Shown here: piece after piece, positions 29,503-49,024 of the stretch | Position numbering within the stretch: the first letter of the stretch is position 1 | Layout: each line of letters begins with the position of its first letter | From: Roseovarius indicus | Lineage (GTDB): Bacteria > Pseudomonadota > Alphaproteobacteria > Rhodobacterales > Rhodobacteraceae | DNA length: 64,000 nt | Direction: 5' to 3' | NCBI RefSeq assembly: GCF_008728195.1 | Contig: NZ_CP031598.1 | Span: 868,001 to 932,000 of the forward strand | The notes under the pieces: generated by a model | Told to the model about the DNA's origin: nothing | What the model saw: only the letters and a program-made list of their open reading frames with translations | Database searches by the model: none | Translations under genes and position numbers: made by a program

Positions 29503-29540
29503 CTTTCAAAAATGTTGACAGATGACAGAATTTTTGAAAG
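29503..29540 (+). promoter_or_regulatory. Composite operator before the hydroxyacid-dehydrogenase operon
   Basis: CTTTCAAAAAT (29503-29513) and ATTTTTGAAAG (29530-29540) are perfect 11-base inverted arms. Between them lies TGTTGACAGATGACAGA, which contains a tandem TGACAGA repeat and matches the core of the sites at 39952 and 43025. It ends 29 bases before the first gene, consistent with a repressor site over the promoter. The GntR protein at 42203 is the probable ligand. Confidence 0.6.
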
Positions 29541-29569
29541 TTTGAGGCGACTGAACAAAGAGGAAGACA

Positions 29570-30595
29570 ATGCGCGTAGCGGTACTGGACGACTATCAGG
29601 GCGTCGCCCTCAAGCTGGTGGACTGGGGCACGCTGCCCGGTGTCACCGTGGTTCCCTTCCGCGATCACGTGCATGACCCCGACCTCCTTGTCGCCCGGCT
29701 TCAGGGCTACGACGCGGTGATGCGGATCAGGGAGCGGACAGAGTTTCCGCGCTCCGTGCTGGAGCGCCTTCCCGACCTCAAACTCTTCCTTGCCACCGGC
29801 ATGCGCAATGCACGTTCGCTTGATCTCGAGGCCGCCGACGACCTCGGTATCACCGTCTGCACAACGAATGCGCTTCACCAGACCACGGTCGAGGTCACCT
29901 GGGCCCTGATCTTCGAGCTGATGCGCAACCTGCCCGCCGAAACCGAATCGCTGCGCGCCGGCGGCTGGCAGGTGGGTCTGGGCCGCGGTCTTGCCGGCAA
30001 GACGCTCGGCATCGTGGGCCTGGGCAACATGGGCATTCCCGTCGCGAAGATCGGCCAGGTCCTCGGCATGAACGTCGTCGCCTGGAGCGCCAACCTCACG
30101 CCCGAACGCACCGCACCCCATGACGTCACCTGCGTCACCAAGGACGAGCTTTTCGCCACCTCCGACGTCATCACCCTGCACCTGCCGCACAGTGACACCA
30201 CCGAAGGCACCGTCGGCGCCCGCGAACTCGGCCTGATGAAACCTCGCTCGGTCATCGTCAACACCGCCCGCCCGGCCCTCTGGGACGAGGCCGCACTCTA
30301 CGCCGCGCTCCGCGAAGAACGCATCGGGGGCGCCGGCATGGATGTCTACATGGTCGAACCGCTCCCCGACGATCACCCGTTCCGCCATCTGCGCAACGTC
30401 GTGGCCACCCCGCATATCGGTTTCGTCACCGAAGAGAATTTCGAGATCTTCTACCGCCAGACACACGAGAACCTGCGCGCCTATCTCGACGGCTCGCCCA
30501 TCAACGTCATCAGCGGCAGCCGCCCCTTCCTGCCCGACTCGCAGGTCGCCCAACAGATGCACGCGCAGAAGCTGGCAAGCTCGAAACGCGCCTGA
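29570..30595 (+). CDS. D-isomer-specific 2-hydroxyacid dehydrogenase family protein
   Basis: A 341-residue NAD-dependent dehydrogenase. The Rossmann motif G-I-V-G-L-G-N-M-G lies near residue 147, and the catalytic triad is visible as the Arg in V-N-T-A-R-P-A-L-W, the Glu in M-V-E-P-L-P and the His in A-T-P-H-I-G-F. It would interconvert a 2-hydroxy acid and a 2-keto acid. GAGGAAG precedes the ATG. It is the first gene of a run of five genes in the same direction (dehydrogenases, flavoprotein, two amidases). Confidence 0.88.
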   Translation: MRVAVLDDYQGVALKLVDWGTLPGVTVVPFRDHVHDPDLLVARLQGYDAVMRIRERTEFPRSVLERLPDLKLFLATGMRNARSLDLEAADDLGITVCTTNALHQTTVEVTWALIFELMRNLPAETESLRAGGWQVGLGRGLAGKTLGIVGLGNMGIPVAKIGQVLGMNVVAWSANLTPERTAPHDVTCVTKDELFATSDVITLHLPHSDTTEGTVGARELGLMKPRSVIVNTARPALWDEAALYAALREERIGGAGMDVYMVEPLPDDHPFRHLRNVVATPHIGFVTEENFEIFYRQTHENLRAYLDGSPINVISGSRPFLPDSQVAQQMHAQKLASSKRA

Positions 30596-30662
30596 ACACG
30601 GCGGCGGCGCCCCGACGCGCCCCGCATCACCCGAACACGGATACCAAGGAAAGAAGGACGTC

Positions 30663-32138
30663 ATGGAGGACTACGAACTGTTCATCGGCGGCGAATTCGT
30701 CAAAACCGCCGATCAGGAATACTTCCCCGCCATCAACCCCTACACAAGCAAGGCCTGGGCCAACATCCCGCAGGCCAGCGACGCGCAGGTGGCCGACGCC
30801 ATCGCCGCCGCCCGCCAGACCTTCGAAGGGGCCTGGTCGAAAGTTTCCGGCGCCGAACGCGCCCGCCTCATGCACCGCCTCGCCGACCTGCTGCAGGAAA
30901 ACGGCGACCGCATGGGCCTTCTCGAAAGCACCGATAACGGCAAGGTCATCCGCGAAACCCGCAGCCAGATGAACTTCGCCGCCCGGCAATACCGCTTCTT
31001 CGCGGGTTACGCCGACAAGCTCTGGGGCAAGGTCATCCCGCTCGATCAGCCCCAGATCTTCGACTACGCCACCCGTGAACCCATCGGCGTCGCGGTGCTC
31101 ATCACCGCCTGGAACTCGCCCATGGGCCTCCTGTCGAACAAGCTCGCCCCGGCCCTGGCCGCGGGCAACTGCGTCGTCATCAAACCCTCCGAACACGCCT
31201 CCGCCACCACGCTCGAATTCGCCCGCTTCGTGGAACAGGCCGGCTTTCCGCCAGGCGTGGTCAACGTCGTCACCGGCGACGCCCGCGTCGGCAAGGCACT
31301 CCTGACCAGCGGCCGCATCGATCGGGTCAGCTTCACCGGCAGCCCGGGCGTCGGCCGCGAGATCGCCGCCAATGCCGGCCGCGCGCTGGTGCCCTCGACG
31401 ATGGAACTGGGCGGCAAGTCCCCCAACATCATTTTCGAGGACGCCGATGTCGACAAGGCCATCATCGGCGCGCTCGCCGGCATCTTCGCCGCCACCGGCC
31501 AGACCTGCATCGCCGGCTCCCGCCTTCTGGTGCAGCGCGGCGTCTATGACCGCGTCTCCGAGGAACTCGTCCGCCGCGCCCAGCAGATCAAGATGGGCGA
31601 CCCCACCGACAAGGCCACCGAGATGGGCACCGCGGCCAACGAACCACAGTTCAACCGCATCCTCGGCTCGATCAAGGGCGCCGTGGACGAGGGCGCCGAG
31701 CTTGCTGTCGGCGGCAAGCGCGCCGAAGGGGCCGACCTCGAAAACGGCTTCTTCGTCGAGCCCACCATCTTCACCGGCGTCAGCAACGACATGACCATCG
31801 CGCAGGAAGAGGTGTTCGGCCCGGTCCTCTCGATCCTCCCCTTCGACACCGAGGAAGAGGCCATCGCCATCGGCAACGACACCAAGTACGGCCTCGCCTC
31901 CGGCATCTGGACGACCGACCTCAACCGCGCCATGCGCGTGTCGAAATCGATCATGGCCGGCACCGTCTGGGTCAACACCTACCGCTCGGTCGCCGTCCAG
32001 GCCCCCTTCGGCGGCTTCAAGGATAGCGGCTTCGGCCGCGAACGCGGCGAATACGCGCTCGACGAGTTCACCAACACCAAGAACGTGATGATCGACTTTT
32101 CCGACGAAGAGCGGGACCCGTTCGCGATCAAGGCATGA
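30663..32138 (+). CDS. Aldehyde dehydrogenase family protein
   Basis: A 491-residue NAD(P)-dependent aldehyde dehydrogenase with catalytic Cys in G-Q-T-C-I-A-G-S-R and general-base Glu in M-E-L-G-G-K-S-P-N-I; T-A-W-N-S-P near residue 152 contributes to cofactor binding. GAAGGA precedes the ATG at 30663; the longer upstream frame lies inside the previous gene. It would oxidise an aldehyde intermediate of this locus to the acid. The closest functional group (betaine, hydroxymuconic or other semialdehyde) cannot be told from sequence reading alone. Confidence 0.9.
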   Translation: MEDYELFIGGEFVKTADQEYFPAINPYTSKAWANIPQASDAQVADAIAAARQTFEGAWSKVSGAERARLMHRLADLLQENGDRMGLLESTDNGKVIRETRSQMNFAARQYRFFAGYADKLWGKVIPLDQPQIFDYATREPIGVAVLITAWNSPMGLLSNKLAPALAAGNCVVIKPSEHASATTLEFARFVEQAGFPPGVVNVVTGDARVGKALLTSGRIDRVSFTGSPGVGREIAANAGRALVPSTMELGGKSPNIIFEDADVDKAIIGALAGIFAATGQTCIAGSRLLVQRGVYDRVSEELVRRAQQIKMGDPTDKATEMGTAANEPQFNRILGSIKGAVDEGAELAVGGKRAEGADLENGFFVEPTIFTGVSNDMTIAQEEVFGPVLSILPFDTEEEAIAIGNDTKYGLASGIWTTDLNRAMRVSKSIMAGTVWVNTYRSVAVQAPFGGFKDSGFGRERGEYALDEFTNTKNVMIDFSDEERDPFAIKA

Positions 32139-32176
32139 CCTCCGGGTCGGACACTGTGCTGAAGGAGGCTGCATAG

Positions 32177-33625
32177 ATGGCAGAAGTAATGAAAATCGTC
32201 GTGGCCGGCTGTGGGATAGCCGGCCTCTCGGCCGCCGTTTCCGCGGCCGAGCAGGGGGCGTCGGTCACCGTGCTCGAACGCGCGGTCAAGGAGGAGCGCG
32301 GCGGCAACACCCGCTGGACCGAAGCCTTCATGCGCATGAAATCCGAGGAGGAAGTGGCCGACGATTTCGTCGATCACTTCATGGACAATGCCGGCTGGCA
32401 CCTCGACCCCTCGCTCATGAACGAAACCGCCCGCGACTATGCCGAATGGCCGGCCATCGTGAAGGCGCTCTCCTTCACCGACCCCGAGATCATCGGCACC
32501 CTCGCCGCCGAAGCCGGCCCGACGCTTTCGTGGCTCAAGGAACACGGCATCCGCTTCTCCGACATGCCCACCTACCTGCTGACCCAGTCGACCACCCGCA
32601 TCTGCCCCGTGGGCGGCGGTCAGGCACTGGTCGACGCGCTGGCCGCCCGCGCCGAAGAGCTCGGCGTCGACTTCCGCTACGAGACCACGGCCGTCGAATT
32701 CCTCCGCGACGACAGCGGCCAGGTCACCGGCCTCCGCGCCCGTACTGCCGACAACGGTGCCCTCATCGACCTCCCCGGCAAGGTCATCCTCGCCTGCGGC
32801 GGCTTCGAGGGGAACGCCGAGATGCAGTCGCAATATTACGGCGAACGCGCCCGCTACATCCGCCCCGTCGCCCGCGGCGGCTATTACAACCGGGGCGAGG
32901 GCGTGCGCATGGCACTGGCGCTGGGCGCCGCCACCTGCGGCGACTTCTCCGAATACCACGCCGAACCGATCGACCCGCGCTCCGGCGTCTCCGAGCCGAT
33001 CGTCTTCAACTTCCCCTACGGCATCCTCGTCGACCAGTCGGGCAACCGCTTCATCGACGAGGCCTCCGCCACCGTCGACGCGATCTACGAAAACGTCGCC
33101 CGCACCATCAACAAGCTGCCGGGCGGCGTGGCCTACCTGATCTGCGACGAACGCCTGGATGAGGTCGAAAACTGGCAGCGCAGCGTGCGCAGCGACCAGA
33201 AGCCCGTGACCGCCGACACCCTGCCGGAACTCGCCCAGAAACTCGGCATCGAACCAACCGCCCTCGACCAGACGGTCACCGCCTACAACGCCGCCACCAC
33301 CGAAGGCACCTTCCGCCCCTTCGAACTCGACGGTCTCGGCACCACCGGCCTCACCCCGCCGAAATCGAACTGGGCGCTGCCCATCGCCAAGGGCCCGTTC
33401 CGGGCCTGGCCCATCAGCTCGGCCAACTGCTTCACCTTCGGCGGCCTGCGCTGCAATTCCAGCGCCCAGGTCCTCGACGGCGAAGGCCGGGTCATCCCCA
33501 ACATCTACGCCGCGGGCGAGACGATGGGCCTCTACTACAAGCGCTACACCGGGGCGACCTCGGTGCTGCGCGGCGCCGTCTTCGGGCGGATCGCCGGACA
33601 ACATGCCAGCGGCGCGAGGGCCTGA
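32177..33625 (+). CDS. FAD-dependent oxidoreductase, tricarballylate dehydrogenase (TcuA)/fumarate reductase family
   Basis: A 482-residue flavoprotein. The N-terminal dinucleotide motif V-V-A-G-C-G-I-A-G-L-S-A-A (8-20) binds FAD, the acidic E at V-L-E-R-A follows, and the C-terminal Y-A-A-G-E-T-M-G-L-Y motif is typical of the fumarate-reductase/succinate-dehydrogenase flavoprotein family. TcuA-like members introduce a double bond into tricarballylate to make cis-aconitate. GGAGG stands before the ATG. A PrpF-like isomerase and an isocitrate-lyase-family lyase elsewhere in the locus fit a desaturation step on a polycarboxylic acid. Confidence 0.84.
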   Translation: MAEVMKIVVAGCGIAGLSAAVSAAEQGASVTVLERAVKEERGGNTRWTEAFMRMKSEEEVADDFVDHFMDNAGWHLDPSLMNETARDYAEWPAIVKALSFTDPEIIGTLAAEAGPTLSWLKEHGIRFSDMPTYLLTQSTTRICPVGGGQALVDALAARAEELGVDFRYETTAVEFLRDDSGQVTGLRARTADNGALIDLPGKVILACGGFEGNAEMQSQYYGERARYIRPVARGGYYNRGEGVRMALALGAATCGDFSEYHAEPIDPRSGVSEPIVFNFPYGILVDQSGNRFIDEASATVDAIYENVARTINKLPGGVAYLICDERLDEVENWQRSVRSDQKPVTADTLPELAQKLGIEPTALDQTVTAYNAATTEGTFRPFELDGLGTTGLTPPKSNWALPIAKGPFRAWPISSANCFTFGGLRCNSSAQVLDGEGRVIPNIYAAGETMGLYYKRYTGATSVLRGAVFGRIAGQHASGARA

Positions 33626-33674
33626 CCCTCGCGCCCCGCGCGCAACGCAAAAAACAGACAGGGAACCATAAGAA

Positions 33675-35183
33675 ATGACGATCAAGCACCCCACGCCCGA
33701 CACCGTCCGCGATCTCTCCGACCGGCTGGGCCTCAACCTCGCCGAAAAGGATCACCCCCTCTACGCCGAGCTGATGCAGGGCATGGTGGAAAGCTATGAA
33801 CGTCTCGACGCGATGGAGGCTCCGGGTCCCGACCGGCCCGGCCGTGGCAAGGTGGGGCAGGCGCCCGACGAGGCCCAAAACCCCCACGCTGCCTGGACAT
33901 GGATGGGTCCGATCGAACCCACCGGCAAGGGCGTGCTCGACGGCTACGAGGTGGGCGTCAAGGACGCGATCTGCGTCGCCGGCATGCCCGCCCCCAACGG
34001 CTCGGCCCTGCTGAAGGATTTCATCCCCGATTTCGACGCCACCGTCGTCACCCGCGTTCTCGCCGCCGGCGGCACCATCAAGGGCAAGACCGCCTGCGAA
34101 AACCTCTCCTTCTCGGGCCACAGCCACACCAGCAATCCGCCCGTCCAGAACCCCAACGCCCCGGGTTTCGCCGCCGGCGGCTCCTCCAGCGGCAGCGCCG
34201 CGGCCATTGCGGCGGGCGACATCTCCATGGCGCTCGGCTGTGACCAGGGCGGCTCCGTCCGCATCCCCGCCGCGTGGTCCGGCATCGTCGGCCTCAAGCC
34301 CACCCACGGCCTCGTGCCCTACACCGGCGCCTATGCCATGGACGCCACCATCGACCACTGCGGCCCGATGGGCGCCACCGTCGAAGACATCGCCCGCCTC
34401 CTGACCGCCATCGCCGGCCCCGACGGGCTCGACGTCCGGCAGGCGAACGTGCCCGACACGCCGGTGAACTACCTCGACGCCCTCTCCGACACCACCGCGC
34501 CCAAGCGCATCGGCCTCGTCAAGCAGGGCTTTGGCCGCCCCGAAAGCGAAGCCGACTCCGACGCGCTCGTCCGCGAGGCCGCCGACACCTTCCGCGCCGC
34601 CGGCGCCGTGGTCGAGGAAATCGACCTGCCCACCCACATGGACTGCTTCGACGTCTGGAGCGCCATCGTCGTCGGCGGCACCTCCGAACTGATGTTCAAG
34701 CAGAACGGCATGGCCACCTTCGAGGAAAACTTCACCGACCCTGCCATGCTCGAGGCCATCTCCGGCTGGCGCGCCAACCCCGAAGGCATCTCCCCCACCG
34801 CCATCCCGCCCTTCCTGATGGGCAGCTACATGGCGGAAAATTACCAGAACCGCTTCTACGCCAAGGCGCAGTCGCTCCTGAAATGGATGCGCGCGGGCTA
34901 TGACAAGGCGCTGGACCAATACGACATGCTCGTCATGCCCACGATCCCCTTCCGCGCCACCGCCATGCCCGGCCCCGACGCCACCCTGCGCGAACGCATC
35001 GAACTGGCCCTGCCCATGGTCGGCAACACCGCGCCCTTCAACGCCGCGGGTCACCCCTGCCTCTCGATCGCCTGCGGCACGGTCGAAGGCCGCCCCGTCG
35101 GCATGATGCTGGTCGGCAAGCATTTCGGCGAGGCGGGCCTCATCTCTGCCGCCGCGCAGTACGAAAAAGCCCGGGGAGCCTGA
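33675..35183 (+). CDS. Amidase, amidase-signature family (first of two)
   Basis: A 502-residue amide hydrolase of the amidase-signature family. The Ser-cisSer-Lys triad is visible: Lys in G-T-I-K-G-K-T-A-C-E near 137, the Gly/Ser-rich A-A-G-G-S-S-S-G-S-A-A-A near 170 and the nucleophile Ser in C-D-Q-G-G-S-V-R-I-P near 193. It would hydrolyse an amide to the acid and ammonia or an amine. It is followed two bases later by a second, different amidase, which suggests sequential hydrolysis of two amide bonds or two related substrates. Confidence 0.9.
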   Translation: MTIKHPTPDTVRDLSDRLGLNLAEKDHPLYAELMQGMVESYERLDAMEAPGPDRPGRGKVGQAPDEAQNPHAAWTWMGPIEPTGKGVLDGYEVGVKDAICVAGMPAPNGSALLKDFIPDFDATVVTRVLAAGGTIKGKTACENLSFSGHSHTSNPPVQNPNAPGFAAGGSSSGSAAAIAAGDISMALGCDQGGSVRIPAAWSGIVGLKPTHGLVPYTGAYAMDATIDHCGPMGATVEDIARLLTAIAGPDGLDVRQANVPDTPVNYLDALSDTTAPKRIGLVKQGFGRPESEADSDALVREAADTFRAAGAVVEEIDLPTHMDCFDVWSAIVVGGTSELMFKQNGMATFEENFTDPAMLEAISGWRANPEGISPTAIPPFLMGSYMAENYQNRFYAKAQSLLKWMRAGYDKALDQYDMLVMPTIPFRATAMPGPDATLRERIELALPMVGNTAPFNAAGHPCLSIACGTVEGRPVGMMLVGKHFGEAGLISAAAQYEKARGA

Positions 35184-35185
35184 GC

Positions 35186-36580
35186 ATGACCGACCTGACA
35201 AAGCTGAGCGCCGTGGAAGCCGGCCGCAAGATCGCCGCCGGCCAGTTCAAATCCGTCGACCTTGTCGCGGCCGCGCTGGTCCGCGCCGAAACCCTCGACG
35301 ACCGCTTGCACGCCTTCGCCCTGCGCCTCGACGAAGACGCGCTGGCCGAAGCCAAGGCGCTCGACGCCGAAACCGCCGAGGGCAAAAGCCGCGGGCCCCT
35401 CCACGGTGTGCCCGTCGCGGTGAAAGACCTCTGCGACATGGCGGGCCACCCCACCGCCGCCGGCCTGCCCATGTTCCGCGACCGCACCGCAAAGGCCGAC
35501 GCCACCGTCGTCGAACGCCTCCGCGCCGCCGGCTGCGTCATCATCGGCAAGACCGAGCTCTCCGAAGGTGCCCTCGCGCTCCACCACCCCGACGTCACCA
35601 AGCCGGTGAACCCGTGGCGTGACGACCTCTGGACAGGCTCCTCCTCCTCCGGCTCCGGCGTTTCCGTGGCCGCCGGCATCGTCCCCGCCGCCATCGGCAG
35701 CGACACCGGCGGCTCCATCCGCTTTCCGGCGCTCTGCAACGGCATCGTCGGCCTCAAACCCACTTGGGGCCGGGTCAGCCGCCACGGCGTCTTCCCCCTT
35801 TCCTGGACCCTCGACCATGTCGGCCCGCTCGCCCGCACGGTCGAAGACGCCGCCGCCATGCTGCAGGCCATCGCCGGCCGCGACGACAACGACAGCACCA
35901 CCATCCCCGCGCCGGTCCCCGACTACCTCGCCGCCACCGGGGCAGGGGTGAAGGGCCTGCGCATCGGCTTCGACGAGGGCTACGCCACCGACGGCGTCAT
36001 CCCCGAAACCGTCGCCGCGATGAAAAAGGCGCTCGCCAGCCTCGAAGGGCAGGGCGCCACCATCTGCGACTACACCATGCCCGACACGTCAGCGGCCAAC
36101 GCCGCCTGGACCCCCATCTGCCTCTCCGAGGCCTGGAGCGTCCATGAAGAGCTCGCGGTCGACACGCCCGAGGGCTATTCCGAAGGCTTCCGCGAGGCGC
36201 TTGCCGCCGGCAAGGCCTTCACCGGCGCCGACTATGCCCGCGCCAACCTTGCCCGCCGTGAATTCGTGGGCGCGCTCGACCGCGTCTTCGCCGAGGTCGA
36301 CCTGCTCCTCGTCCCGGTCACCCCCAACCCGGTGCCCACGGTCGAGGAATTCGCCCGCATCTGCCCCGACCCCGAAGGGCTCGAACGGCTGATCCGCTTC
36401 ACCTGCCTCTACGACGTCTCGGGCAACCCCACCATCACGCTCCCCGCGGGCCTGTCGGAAACCGGCGAACCGCTGGCCTTCCAACTCGTCGCCCCCCGCC
36501 TCGAGGAAGCCCGCCTCTTCCAGGCCGGCAAGGTAGTGGAAGAGGCCTTCGGCTTCGACAACCTCGCCCCGCTCGACTGA
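35186..36580 (+). CDS. Amidase, amidase-signature family (second of two)
   Basis: A 464-residue amidase-signature enzyme. Catalytic elements are Lys in V-I-I-G-K-T-E-L near 116, T-G-S-S-S-S-G-S-G near 150 and Ser in S-D-T-G-G-S-I-R-F near 176. It is only distantly similar to the preceding amidase, so it is not a recent duplicate. Its start is two bases after the upstream stop, with GGGGAG as ribosome site, so the two are coupled. No signal peptide is present, so both act in the cytoplasm after uptake. Confidence 0.9.
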   Translation: MTDLTKLSAVEAGRKIAAGQFKSVDLVAAALVRAETLDDRLHAFALRLDEDALAEAKALDAETAEGKSRGPLHGVPVAVKDLCDMAGHPTAAGLPMFRDRTAKADATVVERLRAAGCVIIGKTELSEGALALHHPDVTKPVNPWRDDLWTGSSSSGSGVSVAAGIVPAAIGSDTGGSIRFPALCNGIVGLKPTWGRVSRHGVFPLSWTLDHVGPLARTVEDAAAMLQAIAGRDDNDSTTIPAPVPDYLAATGAGVKGLRIGFDEGYATDGVIPETVAAMKKALASLEGQGATICDYTMPDTSAANAAWTPICLSEAWSVHEELAVDTPEGYSEGFREALAAGKAFTGADYARANLARREFVGALDRVFAEVDLLLVPVTPNPVPTVEEFARICPDPEGLERLIRFTCLYDVSGNPTITLPAGLSETGEPLAFQLVAPRLEEARLFQAGKVVEEAFGFDNLAPLD

Positions 36581-36600
36581 CGGGGGCGACCGCACGATCG

Positions 36601-40935: not shown

Positions 40936-42075
40936 ATGACATCCGGGGCCCGGCGCCTGCCGGCTGTCTACATGCGCGGCGGCACCTCCCGCGGCATCAT
41001 GCTGAACCGCAAGGACCTGCCGCAAGACCGCGCCGAATGGGCGCCGCTCTTCCTCGCCATCATGGGCTCCCCCGACCCCAACCGCCGCCAGCTCGACGGC
41101 ATGGGGGGCGGCATCTCCTCCCTCTCCAAGATCTGCGTCGTCGGCCCCTCCACCCGTGCCGGGGCCGATATAGACTACACCTTCGCCCAGGTCGACGTCA
41201 CCTCGCCAACGGTCGAATTCGCCGGCGCCTGCGGAAACATGTCCTCCGCCGTCGGCCCCTTCGCCGCCCAGCAGGGGCTCGTCGACACCCCCGCCGACGG
41301 CCCCGTCACCCTCACCGTGCACGACACCAACACCGGCAAGCTGATTCGCACCCGCTTCGCCATGTCCGGCGGCTGGCCCGCCACCACCGGCGACACGGCC
41401 ATCGACGGCATCGCCGGCACCGGCGCGCCCGTCTGGCTCGACTTCCAGGATCCCGCCGGCACCCGCACCGGCGCGCTTTTCCCCACAGGGTTGCGCAGCG
41501 AGCTTCTGGGGCAGGGCGCCGACACCGTCCGCGCCTCGCTGATGGACGTGGCCAGCCCCTGCGTCTTCCTGTCGATGAACGACCTCGGGTTGAAATCCCT
41601 GCCCACCCCCGACGCCCTCACCGCCGACGCGCAGCTCCTCGACCGCCTCGAAACCCTGCGCCGCGAGGCCTCGCAGCGCATGGGCCTCACCGCCACCGAA
41701 ACCGAGGCCGCCGCCCTCCGCAGCGTCCCCCGCATCGGCGTCGTCGGCCCGCCCGCACAGCAAACCACCCTCTCGGGCGAAAGCCTCACCCCCGACGACA
41801 TGACCATCGCCATCCGGATGATCTCGATGGGCGACCCGCACCGCGCCGTTCCCGTCACCGCCGCGCTCTGCCTCGCCGCCGCCGTGGGCATCGAGGGCAC
41901 CGTGCCGGCCGATGTCGCCCGCCCGGGCGACGCGCCGCTGCGCGTCGGCCATCCGTCCGGCGTCACCGAAGTCGCCGCCGAGGTCGCCACCGGCCCCGAC
42001 GGCACCCCGCATGTCGCCTCCGCCAGCGTGGTGCGCACGTCGCGCATCCTCTTCCGCGGCGAGGTTTTTTACTGA
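40936..42075 (+). CDS. PrpF-like cis/trans or allylic isomerase (4-oxalomesaconate tautomerase family)
   Basis: A 379-residue protein of the PrpF/LigU family, which shifts double bonds or isomerises unsaturated polycarboxylates such as aconitates and oxalomesaconate. It has the N-terminal V-Y-M-R-G-G-T-S-R-G (11-20), Q-L-D-G-M-G-G-G-I-S-S (about 53-63) and A-G-A-C-G-N-M-S-S-A (about 95-104), where Cys is probably catalytic. The ATG at 40936 is the start that gives the family N-terminus. Together with the TcuA-like flavoprotein and the lyase, it points to catabolism of a tricarboxylate or methyl-branched unsaturated acid. Confidence 0.88.
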   Translation: MTSGARRLPAVYMRGGTSRGIMLNRKDLPQDRAEWAPLFLAIMGSPDPNRRQLDGMGGGISSLSKICVVGPSTRAGADIDYTFAQVDVTSPTVEFAGACGNMSSAVGPFAAQQGLVDTPADGPVTLTVHDTNTGKLIRTRFAMSGGWPATTGDTAIDGIAGTGAPVWLDFQDPAGTRTGALFPTGLRSELLGQGADTVRASLMDVASPCVFLSMNDLGLKSLPTPDALTADAQLLDRLETLRREASQRMGLTATETEAAALRSVPRIGVVGPPAQQTTLSGESLTPDDMTIAIRMISMGDPHRAVPVTAALCLAAAVGIEGTVPADVARPGDAPLRVGHPSGVTEVAAEVATGPDGTPHVASASVVRTSRILFRGEVFY

Positions 42076-42202
42076 ACACGGTAGACACGAGGCCGTAAAC
42101 TGCTGACATTACGCAAATACGCGGGGAGGCGTCGGGCGACATGAGCAGACGGTCGCACCGCCCACAGATCCAAACGAAGCCTGCAGAGGAGAGCAAGGCG
42201 CA

Positions 42203-42871
42203 ATGCTGAAACCAGTACAGGCGGAAAATCTCGGGCAGCTGGCCTTCGAGCGGCTGGAACATCTCATCCTGACCGGCGAGGTCGAACCGGGCGACAAGCT
42301 GAGCGAGGCCGACCTCGCCCGCCAGCTCGGCATCAGCCGCGGCCCCCTGCGCGAAGCCATCGGCCGGCTCGAGGGGCTGGGCCTCGTCACCCGCAAGGCC
42401 AACCAGCGGCCCCGCGTCACCGCGCTCTCCAAGGTACAGCTCATCGAGCTTTTCGTCTTCCGCGAGGCGGTCGAGGGCATGGCCGCCCGCTACGCCGCAA
42501 TGAACGCCAAGCCGGCCGAGCTCAAGCGCCTCCGCAAACTGCTCGAATCGCACGGCGAAGACCCCGACCTGCGCCGTGGCGTCGGCTACTTCCAGGGCAG
42601 CGGCAACACCGACTTCCACCTCCAGATCGCCCAGGCGTCGCGCAACTCCCGGCTGCACGACTACCTCGCCGGCCCGATCTACTCGATCCTCCGCCTCTAC
42701 CGCCGCCGGTTGAGCGAGGTGCCCGGCCGCGCCGGCGAGGCGCTGTCGGAACATATCGGCATCCTCGAGGCGATCGAGGCCGGAAACGCCGACCTCGCCG
42801 AAAGCCGCATGCGCGCCCATATCGGCGCCAGCCGCCAGAATGTGCACGACTTCATGCAGGACCCCGACTAG
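42203..42871 (+). CDS. GntR-family regulator with FCD domain, likely regulator of the amide/polycarboxylate locus
   Basis: A 222-residue regulator with a winged helix (about 10-75: L-S-E-A-D-L-A-R-Q-L-G-I-S-R-G-P-L-R-E-A) and an FCD domain (about 80-215) with the usual acidic and histidine metal-site residues (F-R-E-A-V-E, N-T-D-F-H-L, S-E-H-I-G-I). It sits between the PrpF-like isomerase and the ABC transporter operon. Repeated CTGTYRACAG palindromes occur at nearby promoters, and a degenerate CTGCTGACA at 42100 lies in front of its own gene, so autoregulation is possible. Confidence 0.9.
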   Translation: MLKPVQAENLGQLAFERLEHLILTGEVEPGDKLSEADLARQLGISRGPLREAIGRLEGLGLVTRKANQRPRVTALSKVQLIELFVFREAVEGMAARYAAMNAKPAELKRLRKLLESHGEDPDLRRGVGYFQGSGNTDFHLQIAQASRNSRLHDYLAGPIYSILRLYRRRLSEVPGRAGEALSEHIGILEAIEAGNADLAESRMRAHIGASRQNVHDFMQDPD

Positions 42872-43024
42872 CCGCCCCGCGGCAGCGATTCCCTGCATCT
42901 TTCCCCGACATAAGGGCATCCGCCCGCCTGCAAATTGATCGCCCGCATGCGAACCGGGCGGCGTGACGCGCCGTCTGTCTGGTTCTTGTGCAAACGTCAG
43001 CAAAGATGGCTGTCGCGGCGATGC

Positions 43025-43047
43025 AAAACTGCCATCTGTTGACAGAT
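43025..43047 (+). promoter_or_regulatory. Operator of the ABC transporter operon, shared with 39952
   Basis: AAAACTGCCATCTGTTGACA is followed by GATTAC, making the palindrome ATCTGT-TG-ACAGAT at 43034-43047. It is almost identical to the site at 39952 and related to the core at 29513. It stands about 100 bases before the binding-protein gene. The other parts of this 274-base gap show nothing I can assign. Confidence 0.65.
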
Positions 43048-43145
43048 TACATTTTATCGGCAACAGTTATCCCAGGCCCGGGGGAGTACCGGGTCTCCGC
43101 GGATGCGGGCCCAACAGAAAAACGCATTGAAACAGGGGAAACGAA

Positions 43146-44378
43146 ATGACTCAGATCTCACGTCGCAGCTTGCTTAGAATGACCGGTGCCGCTGCCACCG
43201 CGCTGGCGGCGCCGGCGATCCTGCCCCGCCGGGCCTTCGCCTCGGACATGATCGAGGTGGGCGCCCTGCACGACAGCTCGGGCAGCCACAGCATCTACGG
43301 CAAGGAAATGGACGACGCCATGAAACTGGCCGTCGAAGAGATCAACGAGGCCGGCGGCGTCATGGGCCGCCAGATCAACCTCACCGCCTTCGACACGGGC
43401 TCGAACATGCAGAACTACGCCCAGTTCGCCCAGCGTCTCGTCACCTCGCAAGAGGCCGACGTGGTCTTCGGCGGCGTCAGCAGCGCCTCGCGCGAAATCA
43501 TCCGCCCGATCTTCAACCGCTCGAACACGCTCTATTTCTACGACACGTTCTACGAGGGCGGCGTCTGCGACAAGAACGCCTTCGTGATGGCCGAAACCCC
43601 CGCCCAGATGATCGGGCCGGCCCTTGAAAAGCTGGTGAAAGACGGCGGCGTCAAGACGATCTACACCATGTGGGCCGACTACAATTACGGCTACATCTGC
43701 TCGACCTGGCTGGAAAACTTCGCCAAGCAATACGGCGCCGAGGTGATCGCCAAGGAATTCTTCCCGCTCGACGTGACAGACTTCTCGGCCACCATCACCA
43801 AGATCCAGAACGAAAGCCCCGACCTCGTGGTCTCGGGCCTCGTCGGCGGCAACCATATCGGCTTCTACCGGCAATGGCCGGCGGCCGGCATGCTGGGCCA
43901 GATCCCGCTGCACTGCACCGTCTTCGGGCCTTGGGAAAAGAACCTCCTCCAGCCGGAAGAGATCGAGGGGCTCACCACCTCCTACCACTACTACGAAACC
44001 ATCGACACGCCGGAAAACGCCGCCTTCCTCGACAAGTGGCACGGCCGCTTCGGCGACGACTACCCCGAGATCGGCACGCTGGCGGTCTGCACCTACAACG
44101 CCGTCAACATCTGGAAACAGGCCGTCGAACAGGCGGGCTCGCTCGACCGTGACGCGGTCGTCGCGGCCATGGAAACCGGCATCAGCTTCGACGGTCCCGG
44201 CGGCACCATGCAGGTCGACCCCGAAACCCACCACGCGATCATGTCGACCGTGGTGGCCGAGGTGCAGAACGGCAAGTTCGAGATCATCGGCAAGAGCGAG
44301 AATGTCGAACCTCTCGACACCTCCGCCGTCTGCGACCTGATCGCCGACCCGAACCAGTCCACCCAGTACCAGCCGTAA
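43146..44378 (+). CDS. ABC transporter substrate-binding protein, amide/urea-type (Peripla_BP_5 family)
   Basis: A 410-residue periplasmic receptor with a twin-arginine leader S-R-R-S-L-L-R-M (5-12) and cleavage near A-F-A (residue 32). The body has V-G-A-L-H-D-S-S-G (about 36-44), D-D-A-M-K-L-A-V-E-E-I-N-E-A-G-G and Y-F-Y-D-T-F-Y-E-G-G, patterns of the FmdD/UrtA/AmiC branch that binds short amides or urea. The two amidases at the locus agree with an amide ligand. It is first of five transport genes in one direction. Confidence 0.9.
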   Translation: MTQISRRSLLRMTGAAATALAAPAILPRRAFASDMIEVGALHDSSGSHSIYGKEMDDAMKLAVEEINEAGGVMGRQINLTAFDTGSNMQNYAQFAQRLVTSQEADVVFGGVSSASREIIRPIFNRSNTLYFYDTFYEGGVCDKNAFVMAETPAQMIGPALEKLVKDGGVKTIYTMWADYNYGYICSTWLENFAKQYGAEVIAKEFFPLDVTDFSATITKIQNESPDLVVSGLVGGNHIGFYRQWPAAGMLGQIPLHCTVFGPWEKNLLQPEEIEGLTTSYHYYETIDTPENAAFLDKWHGRFGDDYPEIGTLAVCTYNAVNIWKQAVEQAGSLDRDAVVAAMETGISFDGPGGTMQVDPETHHAIMSTVVAEVQNGKFEIIGKSENVEPLDTSAVCDLIADPNQSTQYQP

Positions 44379-44391
44379 AGGCAACACGACC

Positions 44392-44424
44392 CCGGCCCGC
44401 CGCGATCACAGGCGCGCGGGCCGG
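44392..44424 (+). other. Intercistronic stem-loop after the ABC binding-protein gene
   Basis: CCGGCCCGC (44392-44400) and GCGGGCCGG (44416-44424) form a perfect 9-bp stem in the 77-base gap before the first permease gene. No T-tract is present. As in the TRAP and phn operons here, it may lower permease expression relative to the receptor or protect the upstream mRNA. Confidence 0.6.
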
Positions 44425-44455
44425 CCATACCGACCGGCAGGGAGTTAAGCGCATC

Positions 44456-45313
44456 ATGGCGATCGCAACCATCCAGATTCTCAATACCATCGCCAGTCTC
44501 GCGCTCATCAGCGTCGGGCTGGCGATCATCTTCGGCATGATGAAAGTGATGAACTTCGCCCATGGCGAACTGCTCATGCTCGGCGCCTACAGCGTCCAGA
44601 CCGCCTATTCCAACGGCGTGAACATCTGGATCGCCATGTTCGTCATCGCCCCGCTCTTCGTCGGGCTCGTCGGCATCCTCATAGAACTGCTGGTGATAAG
44701 GCACTTATACGGCCGGATGATGGATACGCTCCTCGCCACGTGGGGCATATCACTCTTCATCACCGGGCTGATCACCATGATCTTCGGCAACGTGACGCAG
44801 GGCATCTCCACCCCCCTCGGCTTCTACGAGATCGGCGGCATCCGCGACAGTGCCTACAAGTTCCTCATCATCGGCGTCACAATCGTGGTCTTCGGCGGCA
44901 TCTACCTCGTGCTCAAGAAAACCCGCCTCGGCCTCATCGCCCGCGCCACCATGAACAACCCGGGCCAGGTCGCCGTGCTGGGCGTGAACCCCCGCATCGT
45001 CTACACCGTCACCTTCGCCGCCGGCGCCGCCATCAGCGGGCTCGCCGGTGCGGTGCTCGCCCCGGTCACCGGCGTCGTCCCCACCATGGGCGCGGCCTAT
45101 ATCGGCAAGGCCTTCATCACCGTGATCTGCGGCGGCGACGCGATCTTCGCCGGCACGGCCATCGCCTCCATCCTCTTCGGCTCGATCAACCAGGTGACCA
45201 CCATCGTCTCCACCGCCGAGTTCGGCGAGGTCGCCCTCCTGATCGGCGCGCTCCTGATGCTCCGGCTCCTGCCCAAGGGCATCTCCAGCCTCGTCTCCAA
45301 CCGGGCGGTGTGA
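44456..45313 (+). CDS. Branched-chain amino acid/amide-type ABC transporter permease, LivH family
   Basis: A 285-residue inner-membrane permease with about eight helices. The early S-L-A-L-I-S-V-G-L-A-I-I-F-G-M-M-K-V segment and M-N-F-A-H-G-E-L-L-M-L-G-A-Y (about 32-45) are the standard LivH/UrtB signatures. GGGAG precedes the ATG. The second permease starts three bases after its stop codon. With LivM-, LivG- and LivF-type proteins it forms a complete importer. Confidence 0.93.
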   Translation: MAIATIQILNTIASLALISVGLAIIFGMMKVMNFAHGELLMLGAYSVQTAYSNGVNIWIAMFVIAPLFVGLVGILIELLVIRHLYGRMMDTLLATWGISLFITGLITMIFGNVTQGISTPLGFYEIGGIRDSAYKFLIIGVTIVVFGGIYLVLKKTRLGLIARATMNNPGQVAVLGVNPRIVYTVTFAAGAAISGLAGAVLAPVTGVVPTMGAAYIGKAFITVICGGDAIFAGTAIASILFGSINQVTTIVSTAEFGEVALLIGALLMLRLLPKGISSLVSNRAV

Positions 45314-45315
45314 CC

Positions 45316-46335
45316 ATGACCAGATCCCTGACGATACAACTCGGCCTCGTGGCGGTCATCGGCGCGGTCCTCGTGATGGTGCTGCCCCAGCTCATCGGCA
45401 TCGACCGCGTGCTGCAGCTCACCCTCAACTTCGCCTTCTCGATCCTCGCCCTCAGCCTCGCCTTCATCTGGGGCTACGCCGGCATCTTCAGCTTCGGGCA
45501 GGCGGCCTTCTTCGGCGTCGGCGCCTATGCCTACGCGGCGGCCGCCATCAATTTCGGCGAAAGCACCTGGGCCATCCCGATGGCCATCATCGTGCCGGTC
45601 ATCCTCGCGGTGCTGCTTGGCTACTTCATGTTCTATGCCCGCCTCACGGCCATCTACGTGGCGGTCATCACCCTCGTCGTCACCCTCATCATCTACAAGT
45701 TTATGGGCCAGACGGCGAAGCCCAGCTACATGATCGGCAACGCCTCCCTCGGCGGCTACAACGGCATCCCGGCCATCCCGCCGCTCAACGTCCCCGGCCG
45801 CCCCGATCTCTGGGCCGGCCCGACCGAAATGTTCCGCATCGCGGGCTTCGCCCTCATCGCGGTCTATATCGGCCTGCGCCTCCTCCTGGTCTCGCGCCTC
45901 GGCCGCGTCCTCGTCGGCATGCGCGAAAACGAGCTCCGGATGGAACTCCTCGGCTTCGATCCCCGCCTCCTCAAGGTCATCGCCTTCGCCATCAGCGCCG
46001 GCATCGCCGGGCTCGGCGGCATCCTCTTCGCCAACTGGAACGCCTTCATCGATCCGCATGTCTTCAACCTCGCCTTCGCGGCCCAGCCGATCATCTGGGT
46101 CATCATCGGCGGCGTCGGCACGCTATCCGGGCCGATCCTGGGCACCTTCATCCTCTCCACGCTCTCGCTGGAACTCGGCACCCAGAAAGCCCTCGACGTG
46201 AACCTCGTCCTCGGCGCGATCTTCACCATCTTCGTGCTGCTCGTGCCCCAGGGCATCATCCCCAGCATCCGCACCTTCCTCGAAAACCGCGGCATCGGCA
46301 CGGGCGCCAGGAAAGAGGTGCCAGCCCATGACTGA
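45316..46335 (+). CDS. Branched-chain amino acid/amide-type ABC transporter permease, LivM family
   Basis: A 339-residue permease with about nine helices. Characteristic elements are W-G-Y-A-G-I-F-S-F-G-Q-A-A-F-F-G-V-G-A-Y (about 52-71) and the C-terminal I-I-G-G-V-G-T-L-S-G-P (about 266-276). The ATG at 45316 follows the LivH stop by three bases, and the 3' end overlaps the first ATPase gene by eight bases. It is the second half of the heteromeric channel. Confidence 0.93.
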   Translation: MTRSLTIQLGLVAVIGAVLVMVLPQLIGIDRVLQLTLNFAFSILALSLAFIWGYAGIFSFGQAAFFGVGAYAYAAAAINFGESTWAIPMAIIVPVILAVLLGYFMFYARLTAIYVAVITLVVTLIIYKFMGQTAKPSYMIGNASLGGYNGIPAIPPLNVPGRPDLWAGPTEMFRIAGFALIAVYIGLRLLLVSRLGRVLVGMRENELRMELLGFDPRLLKVIAFAISAGIAGLGGILFANWNAFIDPHVFNLAFAAQPIIWVIIGGVGTLSGPILGTFILSTLSLELGTQKALDVNLVLGAIFTIFVLLVPQGIIPSIRTFLENRGIGTGARKEVPAHD

Positions 46336-47074
46336 CACCATGACCGACACCGCCACCCCGATCCTCTCGACCACCAATATCGGCAAGCAGTTCGGTGGCG
46401 TGAAAGCCCTCGAAGGCATCGACTTCGCGCTGGCCGAGGGCGAGCTGCGCTGCCTCATCGGGCCCAACGGCGCAGGCAAGAGCACCTTCTTCCGCTGCCT
46501 CACCAAGCAATACCAGCCCACCACCGGCAAGGTCTTCTTCCGCGGCCGCAATGTCAGCCGCCTCAAGACCCACGAGATCGCCCGCCTCGGCATCGGCATC
46601 AAGACCCAGGTGCCCAACGTCTTCGACGGGCTCACCGTCCGCGAAAACCTCCACCTCGCCGCCTCCGCCCGGATGAGCGGCCACGAGGCCAGCACCGCCT
46701 GCGACGAGGCGATCGAGCGCATGGCGCTGCAACGCATCGTCCACGAACGGCTCGACCGTCTCTCCCACGGGCAACGCCAATGGGTCGAACTGGCGATGAT
46801 CATCACCAGCCGCCCCTTCCTCATCCTGCTCGACGAACCCACCGCAGGCATGACCAGCGAGGAGGTCGGCAAGACCGTCGAGTTGATCCACGAGATCAAC
46901 CGCGACACCGCCCTCGTCATCGTCGAACACGACATGAATTTCGTCCGCGCCATCGCCCGCAAGGTCACCGTCTTCCACCAAGGCAAGATCTTCGCCGAGG
47001 AATCCGCCGACGAAATCATGCGCGACCCGAAAGTCGGCGAAATCTACCTCGGCAAAAGGAACACGGTGCAATGA
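46328..47074 (+). CDS. ABC transporter ATP-binding protein, LivG family
   Basis: A 248-residue ATPase with Walker A G-P-N-G-A-G-K-S-T (about 45-53), a slightly unusual signature L-S-H-G-Q-R-Q and Walker B L-I-L-L-D-E-P-T. Overlaps with its neighbours (8 bases upstream, 4 downstream) show a tightly coupled operon. It energises uptake together with the LivF-type subunit. The H in the signature is common in the urea/amide subgroup of these ATPases. Confidence 0.93.
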   Translation: MTDTMTDTATPILSTTNIGKQFGGVKALEGIDFALAEGELRCLIGPNGAGKSTFFRCLTKQYQPTTGKVFFRGRNVSRLKTHEIARLGIGIKTQVPNVFDGLTVRENLHLAASARMSGHEASTACDEAIERMALQRIVHERLDRLSHGQRQWVELAMIITSRPFLILLDEPTAGMTSEEVGKTVELIHEINRDTALVIVEHDMNFVRAIARKVTVFHQGKIFAEESADEIMRDPKVGEIYLGKRNTVQ

Positions 47075-47784
47075 CCCTGTTGGCGATCGAAGGCCTTCAC
47101 GCCGGCTATGGCCGCATCCCGATCCTGCAAGGCATCGACATGGCCGTCGCACGGGGCAGCTTCACCGGCGTGCTGGGCCATAACGGCATGGGCAAGACCA
47201 CCCTGATGCGCACCATCATGGGCCAAATCACCCCCACCGCCGGCCGCATCACCCTCGACGGGCAGGACATCACCCGCCTCTCGACCCATGGCCGCGCCGC
47301 CAAGGGGCTGGCCTATGTCCCGCAGGGGCGCGAGATCTTCTCGAACCTCACGGTCGAGGAGAACCTGCAGATGGGCCTCCTGGGCCTGCCCTCCCGCGCC
47401 GAACAGAAAACCGAGATGGCGCGCATCCTCGAAGACCTGCCGCGCCTCAAGCCCATCCTCACCCGCAGCGGCGGCGTGCTCTCGGGCGGCGAACAGCAGA
47501 TCCTCGCCATCGCCCGCAGCCTCTGCACCAACCCGACGCTCCTGATCCTCGATGAACCCACCGAGGGCATTCAGCCCTCCATCGTCGAAGAAATCATCGA
47601 CATCCTGCACGCGCTGCGCAAATCGCGCGACCTGACGGTGCTGCTCGTCGAACAGAAGCTGGATTTCATCGAGGCGCTGGCCGACACCACCTTCGTCATC
47701 CAGCGTGGCACGATCACCGGCACGCTCTCCCCCAAGGAAATGAGCGACCCCGACACCGTGCGCGAATTCGTCGGCCTCAGCTGA
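47071..47784 (+). CDS. ABC transporter ATP-binding protein, LivF family
   Basis: A 237-residue ATPase with Walker A G-H-N-G-M-G-K-T-T (about 36-44), signature L-S-G-G-E-Q-Q and Walker B L-L-I-L-D-E-P-T-E-G-I-Q-P, the LivF/UrtE-specific ending. The ATG at 47071 overlaps the LivG-type gene by four bases. It ends the transporter operon and is convergent with the thiolase gene across a two-way hairpin. Confidence 0.93.
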   Translation: MTLLAIEGLHAGYGRIPILQGIDMAVARGSFTGVLGHNGMGKTTLMRTIMGQITPTAGRITLDGQDITRLSTHGRAAKGLAYVPQGREIFSNLTVEENLQMGLLGLPSRAEQKTEMARILEDLPRLKPILTRSGGVLSGGEQQILAIARSLCTNPTLLILDEPTEGIQPSIVEEIIDILHALRKSRDLTVLLVEQKLDFIEALADTTFVIQRGTITGTLSPKEMSDPDTVREFVGLS

Positions 47785-47792
47785 CGAAGAAA

Positions 47793-47829
47793 CGGGGCGC
47801 TCGGGTCTTCTCCCGCTCCGCGCGCCCCG
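47793..47829. terminator. Hairpin between convergent ABC and thiolase genes
   Basis: CGGGGCGC (47793-47800) pairs with GCGCCCCG (47822-47829), and an inner CGGG/CCCG stem closes most of the loop. It lies between the ends of two convergent operons, the expected place for a bidirectional terminator. AAAA follows on the plus strand, so the T-tract is better for the plus-to-minus direction only weakly. Confidence 0.6.
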
Positions 47830-47839
47830 CCAAAACTTC

Positions 47840-49024
47840 TCAGCAGATCTCGAACAACGCCGCGGCGCCTTGGCCGCCGCCCACGCACATCGTCACGACC
47901 GCGTATTTCACCCCGCGGCGCCGCCCCTCGATCAGCGCGTGCCCGGTCAGCCGTGCGCCCGTCATCCCGAACGGGTGCCCGATGGCAATCGCCCCGCCAT
48001 TGACGTTCAGCCGCTCGCCCGGAATCCCCAGCTTGTCGCGGCAATAGATCACCTGCACGGCAAACGCTTCGTTCAGTTCCCAAAGCCCGATATCGTCGAC
48101 CGACAGCCCGTGCCGCTCCAACAGCCGCGGAATGGCGTAGACCGGCCCGATCCCCATCTCGTCAGGCTCCAGCCCCGCCACGGCCATCCCGCGATAGACC
48201 CCCAGCGGCTCCAGCCCGCGCCTTTCCGCATCGGCCCGATCCATCACCACACAGGCCGACGCCCCGTCCGACAACTGGCTCGCATTGCCCGCCGTGATGA
48301 ACTTCTCCGGCCCCATCACAGGCGCCAGCTTCGCCAGACCCTCCAGCGTGGTCGACGGCCTGTTGCCCTCGTCCTGCGCCAGCGTCACCTCCTCCTGCGT
48401 GACCTCGCCGGTCTCCTTGTTCTTGACGTCCTTCACCGTCGGCAGCGGCACGATCTCGTCATCGAACCGGCCCGCCTCCTGCGCCGCCGCGGTGCGCTGC
48501 TGGCTCTGAAGCGAGTACTCATCCTGCGCCTCGCGGCTCACGCCATATCGCGCGGCCACCACGTCGGCGGTGTCGATCATCGGCATGAACAGGTCGGGCT
48601 TGTTGGCCATCATCCAGGGCTCGTCCTTGAAGCCCTGCCGGCGGTTATGCGTCACCAGCGAGACATGCTCGATCCCGCCCGCCACGATCGGCCCCGTGCC
48701 CTCCATCGCCACCATCCTTGCGGCCACGGCAATCGCCTGCAGGCCGGAGGCGCAATGCCGCGACACCACCATGCCGCCCGCCGTCACCGGAACCCCGGCC
48801 CGAATGGCCGAGGCCCGCGCGATGTTGAACCCCGCCGGCCCCTCGGCCACGCCACAGCCAAAGACCACGTCCTCGATCTCCCCCGGCTCGATCCCCGCCC
48901 GCTCCACGGCATGCTTCACCACGTGGCTGCCCATCACCTGCGGATGCGTCGCGTTGAACGCCCCCCGGAACGCCTTGCCGATCGGCGTGCGTGCGGTCGA
49001 TACGATCACGGCATCTCTACTCAT
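47840..49024 (-). CDS. Thiolase (acetyl-CoA acyltransferase family)
   Basis: A 394-residue thiolase. The nucleophilic cysteine is in S-R-H-C-A-S-G-L-Q (near residue 90), the catalytic histidine in G-H-P-F-G-M-T-G (near 350) and the second cysteine in C-V-G-G-G-Q-G-A-A near the C-terminus. It would cleave a beta-ketoacyl-CoA. GGAG precedes the ATG at 49024. It is a lone gene on the minus strand, so its link to the neighbouring catabolic locus is only positional; general beta-oxidation is equally possible. Confidence 0.9.

Follow-up and report, generated by a model that had tools for sequence, protein, structure and literature searches.

A conserved fifteen-gene locus in Roseovarius indicus with a possible role in the catabolism of a branched polycarboxylic acid amide

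Why should two amidases and an amide- or urea-type ATP-binding cassette (ABC) importer be encoded among enzymes that desaturate, isomerise and cleave polycarboxylic acids, and do all of them serve one pathway? The question is raised by a locus of Roseovarius indicus that lies within a 64-kb stretch of DNA (the window; contig positions 868,001–932,000 of the 6.17-Mb genome). An initial annotation of the window had proposed uptake of an amide, two hydrolyses, desaturation, isomerisation and cleavage, and had staked this reading on the genes occurring together in related genomes. When this was examined, the complete set of 15 genes recurred in four other genomes, and the locus is real and conserved and is probably devoted to one pathway. 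On balance, we read the 15 genes as a single catabolic regulon under GntR control. Its starting compound would be a small carboxamide, whether a diamide, half-amide, imide or amide derived from a lactam, with a branched polycarboxylate skeleton like that of succinate or tricarballylate; amides of the alkylsuccinic or tricarballylic type are candidates. No description of the gene set as a pathway was found in the titles and abstract starts of the open-licence literature, among the matches listed.

The gene map was drawn from codon-position composition and from family scans of the window proteins, and every enzyme type of the initial annotation is present with a significant family match. The 15 genes span approximately 29,513–47,784. 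The first run, on the forward strand, encodes a member of the D-2-hydroxyacid dehydrogenase family (2HADH; 29570–30595; PF02826, E 2e-52; under the cut-offs of the 21 NCBIfam models matched), an aldehyde dehydrogenase (30663–32138, with a likely start at ATG 30663; PF00171, E 9.5e-172), a TcuA-like flavin adenine dinucleotide (FAD)-dependent dehydrogenase (32177–33625), amidase 1 (33675–35183) and amidase 2 (35186–36580), separated by gaps of 67, 38, 49 and 2 bases. On the reverse strand lie an AtuA-family gene (38222–39616) and a DUF4387 gene (39613–39915, with a likely start at ATG 39915), which overlap by 4 bases. Divergent from these, on the forward strand, are a lyase of the isocitrate lyase/phosphoenolpyruvate mutase family (40029–40928), a PrpF-family double-bond isomerase (40936–42075) and a GntR/FCD transcriptional regulator (42203–42871; PF07729 and PF00392). 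The remaining genes, all forward, encode the importer, i.e., a UrtA/AmiC-like substrate-binding protein (43146–44378), UrtB-like and UrtC-like permeases (44456–45313 and 45310–46335, the latter scanned within a longer open reading frame (ORF) at 44740–46335), and UrtD-like and UrtE-like ATPases (46328–47074 and 47071–47784, the latter scanned within a longer ORF at 46780–47784), the last of which ends the locus.

Conservation of this set was followed through the TcuA-like protein, which was scanned against one genome per species (GTDB) with two short peptide patterns derived from an alignment with a Paracoccus relative; this search, which misses more distant relatives, yielded 17 loci. The window proteins were mapped on these loci, extended with stretches of the same contigs. 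All 15 genes were found in four of the 17, at 50–83% identity, in metagenome-assembled genomes (MAGs) of the Rhizobiaceae (G422), Phyllobacteriaceae (G423), Tepidamorphaceae (G425) and Kiloniellales (G427). Gene order is identical among the four, and the block running from AtuA-DUF4387 and lyase-PrpF-GntR to UrtABCDE is inverted whole in the window relative to them. Another alphaproteobacterial MAG (G420) holds ten of the 15 genes on two short contigs at 73–95% identity, its GntR match being a fragment, and a gammaproteobacterial MAG (G421) carries the aldehyde dehydrogenase, TcuA, amidase 1, lyase, PrpF and GntR genes on an 8.9-kb contig (L084). Smaller portions were retained elsewhere: eight genes in Xanthobacter aminoxidans (L087) and seven on plasmid pPAN3 of Paracoccus pantotrophus (L078, from a plasmid search and outside the 17), both including AtuA/DUF4387. 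The genes occur in scattered versions in Agaricicola, Tropicimonas and Roseitranquillus. TcuA, PrpF and lyase genes are adjacent in L093 and L095, the former also with UrtABC-like genes (59–63%), and five loci (L094, L096, L097, L098 and L099) hold little besides TcuA, with a 44% lyase added in L098. Within the genus Roseovarius, 33 of 35 species gave no match to the window AtuA and two gave a weak partial match; because the protein is nearly absent from its own genus, the locus was probably acquired by this genome.

Two of these loci carry further genes of note. In Xanthobacter, a B12-binding radical SAM protein is encoded directly 3′ of AtuA (L087:13318–15072). Molybdenum hydroxylase large subunits adjoin TcuA-PrpF-lyase at L093:7550–9910 and L095:7560–9896, with class III aminotransferases nearby, a context that resembles a different front end on the same core.

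The second line of evidence for a single pathway is a shared operator. The 11-base sequence TGTTGACAGAT was first spotted by eye in intergenic output and tested afterwards. It has three matches in the window, all exact and each at a promoter of the locus: 5′ of the 2HADH gene (29513–29523, forward), between the divergent DUF4387 and lyase genes (39961–39971, reverse) and 5′ of the UrtA-like gene (43037–43047, forward). At up to one mismatch, 0.43 matches were expected in the window, and none of 100 shuffles reached three. The core was counted in the window and 13 other stretches; the whole-genome search used the longer form TGTTGACAGATNRCA alone and returned three exact matches, all at the locus promoters, and one extra with one mismatch, while its reversed control gave none. 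In G422, G423, G425 and G427 the operator stands at the same three promoters in 12 of 12 cases; eleven of these are exact, and the site before UrtA of G423 differs at one base. Together with the window this makes 15 of 15 places, 14 exact. The operator is also exact at both promoters present in G420 (L083, where one copy again precedes 2HADH) and at both in L084.

Since one operator is found at every promoter of the locus and is kept in four relatives, the three operons appear to form one regulon. Its partial palindrome would suit binding by a GntR dimer, and the local GntR/FCD protein is presumed to bind it. The TTGACA within the operator suggests a possible overlap with a −35 element; a scan for sigma-70 promoters found none that satisfied its criteria. 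As another candidate operator, the FCD-type consensus T-N-GT-N-AC-N-A was absent from the intergenic stretches and was rejected.

Comparison of the complete sets also redraws the borders of the locus. A GAF-HisKA histidine kinase identified by family scan (36867–38096, forward) and a thiolase adjoining UrtE (47840–49195, reverse) have no counterpart in G422, G423, G425 or G427 and are, by this comparison, outside the conserved locus; the kinase was left out of the 15-gene count. The interval originally given, 29503..49024, enclosed a real locus and, in addition, contained the unlisted kinase and ended within the thiolase. A role for the kinase as regulator of the locus was dropped, given that it has no shared operator and no counterpart in the four sets. 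Its third-position GC (0.68) is below that of the neighbouring locus genes, and it lies at the edge of the block whose orientation differs from that of the other complete sets; it may represent an insertion.

The same two lines of evidence bear on the view that two unrelated systems have become neighbours, namely a general amide-scavenging operon (Urt-like importer and amidases) and a polycarboxylate operon (TcuA, PrpF, lyase and AtuA). In the stretches read, as this view would have it, importers are paired with amidases where the acid genes are missing, and the acid core is found with neither of them. However, the amidases stand in an operon-like run with 2HADH, aldehyde dehydrogenase and TcuA (gaps of 2–67 bases), one operator serves all three promoters, and 15 of 15 genes are held together in four genomes. 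Two separate pathways side by side are set back by the common operator and the joint conservation, and we regard this explanation as highly improbable.

If the genes form the single regulon that we favour, what would enter it? Both amidases match PF01425 (amidase 2 with E 3e-108) and conserve the catalytic motifs, the Lys and Ser-cisSer-type motifs which we take to be the catalytic residues of amidase-signature enzymes. Amidase 1 belongs to the NCBIfam PRK07235 subfamily (NF005565, 581.1 bits against a cut-off of 545) and matches PDB entries 3a1i and 3a1k; amidase 2 is AtzE/GatA-like. The importer shares with UrtABCDE and AmiC-type systems its five genes in order, and its binding protein (PF13433, E 1.8e-79) matches the structures of AmiC and of urea-binding proteins. 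It differs in that it is accompanied by two amidases and that all of its subunits fall below the curated cut-offs of the bacterial Urt models (UrtA 262.8 bits against 492.75, UrtB 190.5 against 250.3, UrtC 162.4 against 296.2, UrtD 253.3 against 304.1 and UrtE 271.2 against 285.8), as they likewise do for the archaeal UrtA, UrtB and UrtC models. With all five subunits under their cut-offs, urea import as such was rejected. Uptake of an amide is supported because Urt-like importers also pair with amidases outside the conserved set, in Pantoea with an enzyme related to amidase 2 and in Paraburkholderia with one related to amidase 1.

The identity of the acid turns on the flavoprotein. The initial annotation had pointed to a TcuA-type reaction, in which tricarballylate is oxidised to aconitate. 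The window protein resembles the TcuA of tcuABC tricarballylate utilisation and falls just short of it, scoring 362.2 bits against the 369 required by NF006130 (and 227.7 against 372.55 for TIGR02485). The partner protein TcuB (CitB) was not found, as model TIGR02484 had no match in the whole genome (nor did it reach its cut-off in 14 control genomes, of which one gave a match), and the window importer is of the ABC type. Because TcuB was not found and the flavoprotein lies just under the TcuA cut-off, tricarballylate oxidation of the TcuAB type is unlikely here, and plain use of tricarballylate is set back.

A more elaborate tricarballylate route was also weighed. Ring opening of a reduced isonicotinate-type pyridine would give the amide of tricarballylic semialdehyde (a chemistry of our own derivation), which would be oxidised, deamidated and desaturated to aconitate, and then cleaved as isocitrate or citrate. 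Such a route would account for the aldehyde dehydrogenase gene that in ten of the 17 loci precedes the TcuA-like gene directly or within about 0.6 kb, for the tricarboxylate-type transporters near related clusters, for an acnA gene adjoining a TcuA cousin and for the molybdenum hydroxylases of L093 and L095. On the other hand, aconitate would need no PrpF or lyases of its own to reach the tricarboxylic acid cycle, the genome search for TcuB found none, and the locus genes include no molybdenum hydroxylase or ring reductase; we consider this route quite unlikely. In favour of the regulon reading, by contrast, the cousin clusters of Azospirillum oryzae and Agrobacterium larrymoorei appear to reach steps equivalent to those of the core with other enzymes: they share an aldehyde dehydrogenase, a TcuA-like enzyme of approximately 54% identity and a lyase, and differ in that a coenzyme A (CoA) transferase and a citryl-CoA lyase (its family checked for Agrobacterium) replace the free-acid lyases. 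The acnA gene lies in the Agrobacterium cluster.

Alternatively, the flavoprotein could be a reductase or oxidase acting on another bond, with the acid imported already unsaturated, e.g., as an alkylmaleate amide or imide, and passed directly to PrpF, a hydratase and the lyases. In the flavoprotein, the residues aligned with the proton-delivery Arg of fumarate reductase and its paired His are not conserved, and a C-terminal Arg is. This pattern, together with the missing TcuB and a Variovorax TcuA cousin found with an isochorismatase-type hydrolase and an Asp/Glu-racemase-family protein, would suit an unsaturated substrate. Similarity to the TcuA family and the frequent pairing with aldehyde dehydrogenase noted above favour oxidation of a saturated acid instead, and this alternative is very unlikely in our estimation.

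The two enzymes that would act after desaturation, PrpF and the lyase, are likewise set apart from their characterised relatives. PrpF (PF04303, E 3.2e-106) scores 266.1 bits against 440.55 and lies under both curated cut-offs that matched; its best solved relative is 3-methylitaconate isomerase (3g7k). The lyase (PF13714) scores 278.6 bits against the 354.4 of the PrpB model TIGR02317. Its best structural match is the petal death protein (1zlp), and it also matches 2,3-dimethylmalate lyase (3fa3), other PDB entries scoring higher. What we take to be the catalytic motif of this lyase branch, K-[KR]-C-G-H, is present as KKCGH (the form in the window) or KRCGH in all 15 rows aligned (the window and 14 relatives), and the Glu that three solved relatives carry in N-x-x-E is replaced by I, F, M or V in all 15.

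Two known pathways combine enzymes of these types. The locus resembles the 2-methylcitrate cycle of the AcnD/PrpF type in holding PrpF and an isocitrate-lyase-family lyase in one operon; it differs in having no prpC, acnD or prpD and in its scores below the PrpF and PrpB cut-offs. The anaerobic nicotinate pathway ends with 3-methylitaconate isomerase, dimethylmaleate hydratase and dimethylmalate lyase, of which the matches to 3g7k and 3fa3 are reminiscent; the locus has no genes for methyleneglutarate mutase, enamidase or dimethylmaleate hydratase. With their defining genes absent from the locus, both pathways as such were rejected.

Lyases of the cassette type were also met in other company. 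In Azospirillum argentinense (L148:2973–8897), prpC-acnD-prpF is followed by a lyase of approximately 50% identity that is under the PrpB cut-off and has the Glu replaced. On two Methylobacterium plasmids (L146 and L147), a 58%-identical lyase is accompanied by an isochorismatase-type hydrolase, an ABC importer, two MmgE/PrpD genes and an FAD enzyme; these clusters are possibly a parallel amide/acid pathway.

The AtuA/DUF4387 pair had been noted by the initial annotation and left without a role. Pfam describes AtuA (PF07287) and DUF4387 (PF14330) without a defined reaction. Over most of their length, the two window proteins match chain A (CmlA; E 1.2e-112) and chain B (CmlB; E 3.3e-22) of PDB 9erq, deposited as the subunits of a citramalate lyase. 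Because both subunits are homologous to those of CmlAB (9erq/9evf), the pair is probably a second lyase, with fold and reaction type likely shared and the substrate perhaps different. In a tree from which two other AtuA loci of the R. indicus genome were left out (one a short match, one none), the 9erq protein groups with a Salmonella protein as close neighbours (100/100), and the window AtuA belongs to a separate clade of 17 rows (100/100) made up of nine cassette rows and eight rows from the class. These eight are nested among the cassette rows and their surroundings are without TcuA, PrpF and lyase.

We take AtuA and DUF1446 to be names for one family, in agreement with product names in the annotated stretches. 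The pair also occurs in Salmonella on a plasmid (L081:10043–11727), beside methylaspartate ammonia-lyase. This is the position given to a DUF1446 protein, downstream of methylaspartate ammonia-lyase, for enterobacterial glutamate clusters in PMC4682846, where the fate of (S)-citramalate is left unclear. The match of the Salmonella pair to CmlAB offers an answer to that question. No paper on CmlAB was found in the open-licence literature, among the matches listed. From the enterobacterial glutamate-fermentation cluster the window locus differs in the clade of its AtuA/DUF4387 pair and in having no fumarase, methylaspartate ammonia-lyase or glutamate mutase.

With family identities, the conserved gene set, the operator and the homology to CmlAB read directly from the sequences, we infer the following order of steps and types of substrate. 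The Urt-like importer would take in the amide, amidases 1 and 2 would strip the amide nitrogen(s) and the aldehyde dehydrogenase would complete the carboxylate. The TcuA-like flavoprotein would then introduce a double bond between two carboxylate-bearing carbons, which PrpF would shift or flip, and an aconitase-superfamily hydro-lyase encoded elsewhere would add water in either direction. The secondary-alcohol isomer (isocitrate-like or 3-alkylmalate-like) would be split as a free acid by the isocitrate-lyase-family enzyme and the tertiary-alcohol isomer (citrate- or citramalate-like) by the CmlAB-like pair, also as a free acid, leaving a 2-oxoacid product for the 2-hydroxyacid dehydrogenase. 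The core for a branched polycarboxylate would comprise aldehyde dehydrogenase, the TcuA-like enzyme, PrpF and the lyase, often with AtuA/DUF4387 and 2HADH. It is a tentative proposal, held with appreciably less confidence than the regulon as a whole, that a single unsaturated branched polycarboxylate derived from the amide is hydrated both ways and each regioisomer cleaved by its own lyase, with the AtuA/DUF4387 enzyme belonging to another subfamily than the citramalate lyase of known structure. The order of uptake, hydrolysis, desaturation, isomerisation and cleavage first proposed for the locus fits the enzyme families, and it stands along with co-occurrence and a single regulon; the tricarballylate type of reaction, the amide as shared chemistry and the inclusion of the kinase and thiolase do not, and a hydration step, omitted from that outline, is needed and has no gene in the locus.

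A number of observations weigh against the pathway as drawn. Concerning the amide, the core of Xanthobacter and that of Paracoccus were found without adjacent amidases or Urt-like importer (in stretches of 21 kb and 33 kb, the rest of these genomes not having been searched), and in Aminobacter a relative of amidase 1 is accompanied by a sugar-type importer instead. With neither amidases nor this importer next to the core within those two stretches, the shared chemistry seems to concern the acid, and the amide genes look like a front end that can be exchanged; amide uptake and hydrolysis as first proposed are supported by the families and the importer-amidase pairs of unrelated loci, and are not a constant companion of the core. 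The operator is weak or absent in the amidase-less sets, with one one-mismatch site in Xanthobacter, a one-mismatch site also in Agaricicola, and none within one mismatch in Paracoccus, L089, L093 or L095. Stray copies also occur: an exact one inside PrpF in L084 and a one-mismatch copy off the promoters in each of G422 and G425.

Concerning the second lyase, 50 of 385 genomes of the class (R. indicus included) have an AtuA match with E no higher than 0.001, in some cases a weak one. Besides that of the window, 48 places match at E <1e-30, of which the best 40 were surveyed, the eight weakest and all weaker matches being left out. TcuA, PrpF and lyase are all absent within 8 kb of AtuA in 36 of these 40 loci, one or two of the three are present in the other four (L058, L059, L060 and L064), and the full set was found in none. 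No AtuA match was found anywhere in G421, a MAG that is possibly incomplete. Three of five plasmid stretches, from Salmonella, Neorhizobium and Klebsiella, have a fumarase near AtuA/DUF4387, and a genome-wide search found no class I fumarase in R. indicus. As to the electron acceptor of the flavoprotein, electron transfer flavoprotein genes are annotated near TcuA cousins in two of four annotated stretches (Variovorax and A. oryzae, and not Cupriavidus and Agrobacterium). Family scans found no hydratase among the locus genes, and the genome holds no further exact copy of TGTTGACAGATNRCA that would tie one in.

The last of these points invites another division of labour within the same regulon, in which AtuA/DUF4387 is itself the missing hydratase and the isocitrate-lyase-family enzyme the sole cleaving enzyme. 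The absence of any other hydratase from the locus speaks for it, as does the separation of the window AtuA from the clade of the solved CmlA, which leaves room for a different reaction; the smaller set of G421, where AtuA is missing, could draw on a housekeeping hydratase. However, both subunits are homologous over most of their length to a deposited citramalate lyase, and the Salmonella, Neorhizobium and Klebsiella plasmids place the pair near a separate fumarase that would perform the hydration. A hydratase role is, in our judgement, unlikely.

For the hydratase encoded elsewhere that the two-lyase scheme would need, G427 provides a candidate. Divergent from its 2HADH gene, with the operator between, stand an aconitase-family gene (Aconitase Pfam match; LeuC-like by reading) and an ORF labelled LeuD-like from its sequence without a family scan (L139:8584–10740). 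Enzymes of the LeuCD type shift a hydroxyl between two carbons of an alkylmaleate; such a shift would feed both lyases, one per regioisomer. The LeuC-like neighbour occurs in one of the four complete genomes, and relatives of it in all 13 genomes searched, a pattern that belongs with the adverse points above. Outside the locus, R. indicus itself has relatives of the LeuC-like gene (57% and 51% identity), five MmgE/PrpD genes and further members of the aconitase family.

What had been a list of annotations becomes a testable regulon, with a fixed set of 15 genes, one operator and a plausible division of labour. The results suggest that small amides of this kind, built on branched polycarboxylic acids, have a degradation route of their own, and they point to a new specificity branch of the widespread AtuA/DUF4387 family. 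Were two lyases indeed at work, this family would have a catabolic role outside glutamate fermentation. Knowing the inducing compound would reveal a substrate evidently encountered by bacteria of several families. We see the main value in the defined regulon and in the reading of AtuA/DUF4387 as a second lyase, not in a categorically new system.

The remainder of the window holds other gene clusters. At 11593–23802, a TIM-barrel/HPPD fusion, shikimate dehydrogenase-like genes, TRAP transporter genes, an HpcH/HpaI aldolase and a flavin monooxygenase probably serve quinate/shikimate-type or aromatic acid catabolism. Downstream of the locus, CbiZ, a FecCD permease, a periplasmic binding protein and a TonB receptor (50606–55787) look like a corrinoid uptake cluster, and a phosphonate-binding protein, an amidohydrolase, a GntR/UTRA regulator and an ABC ATPase (57989–62727) resemble a phosphonate (phn) cluster.

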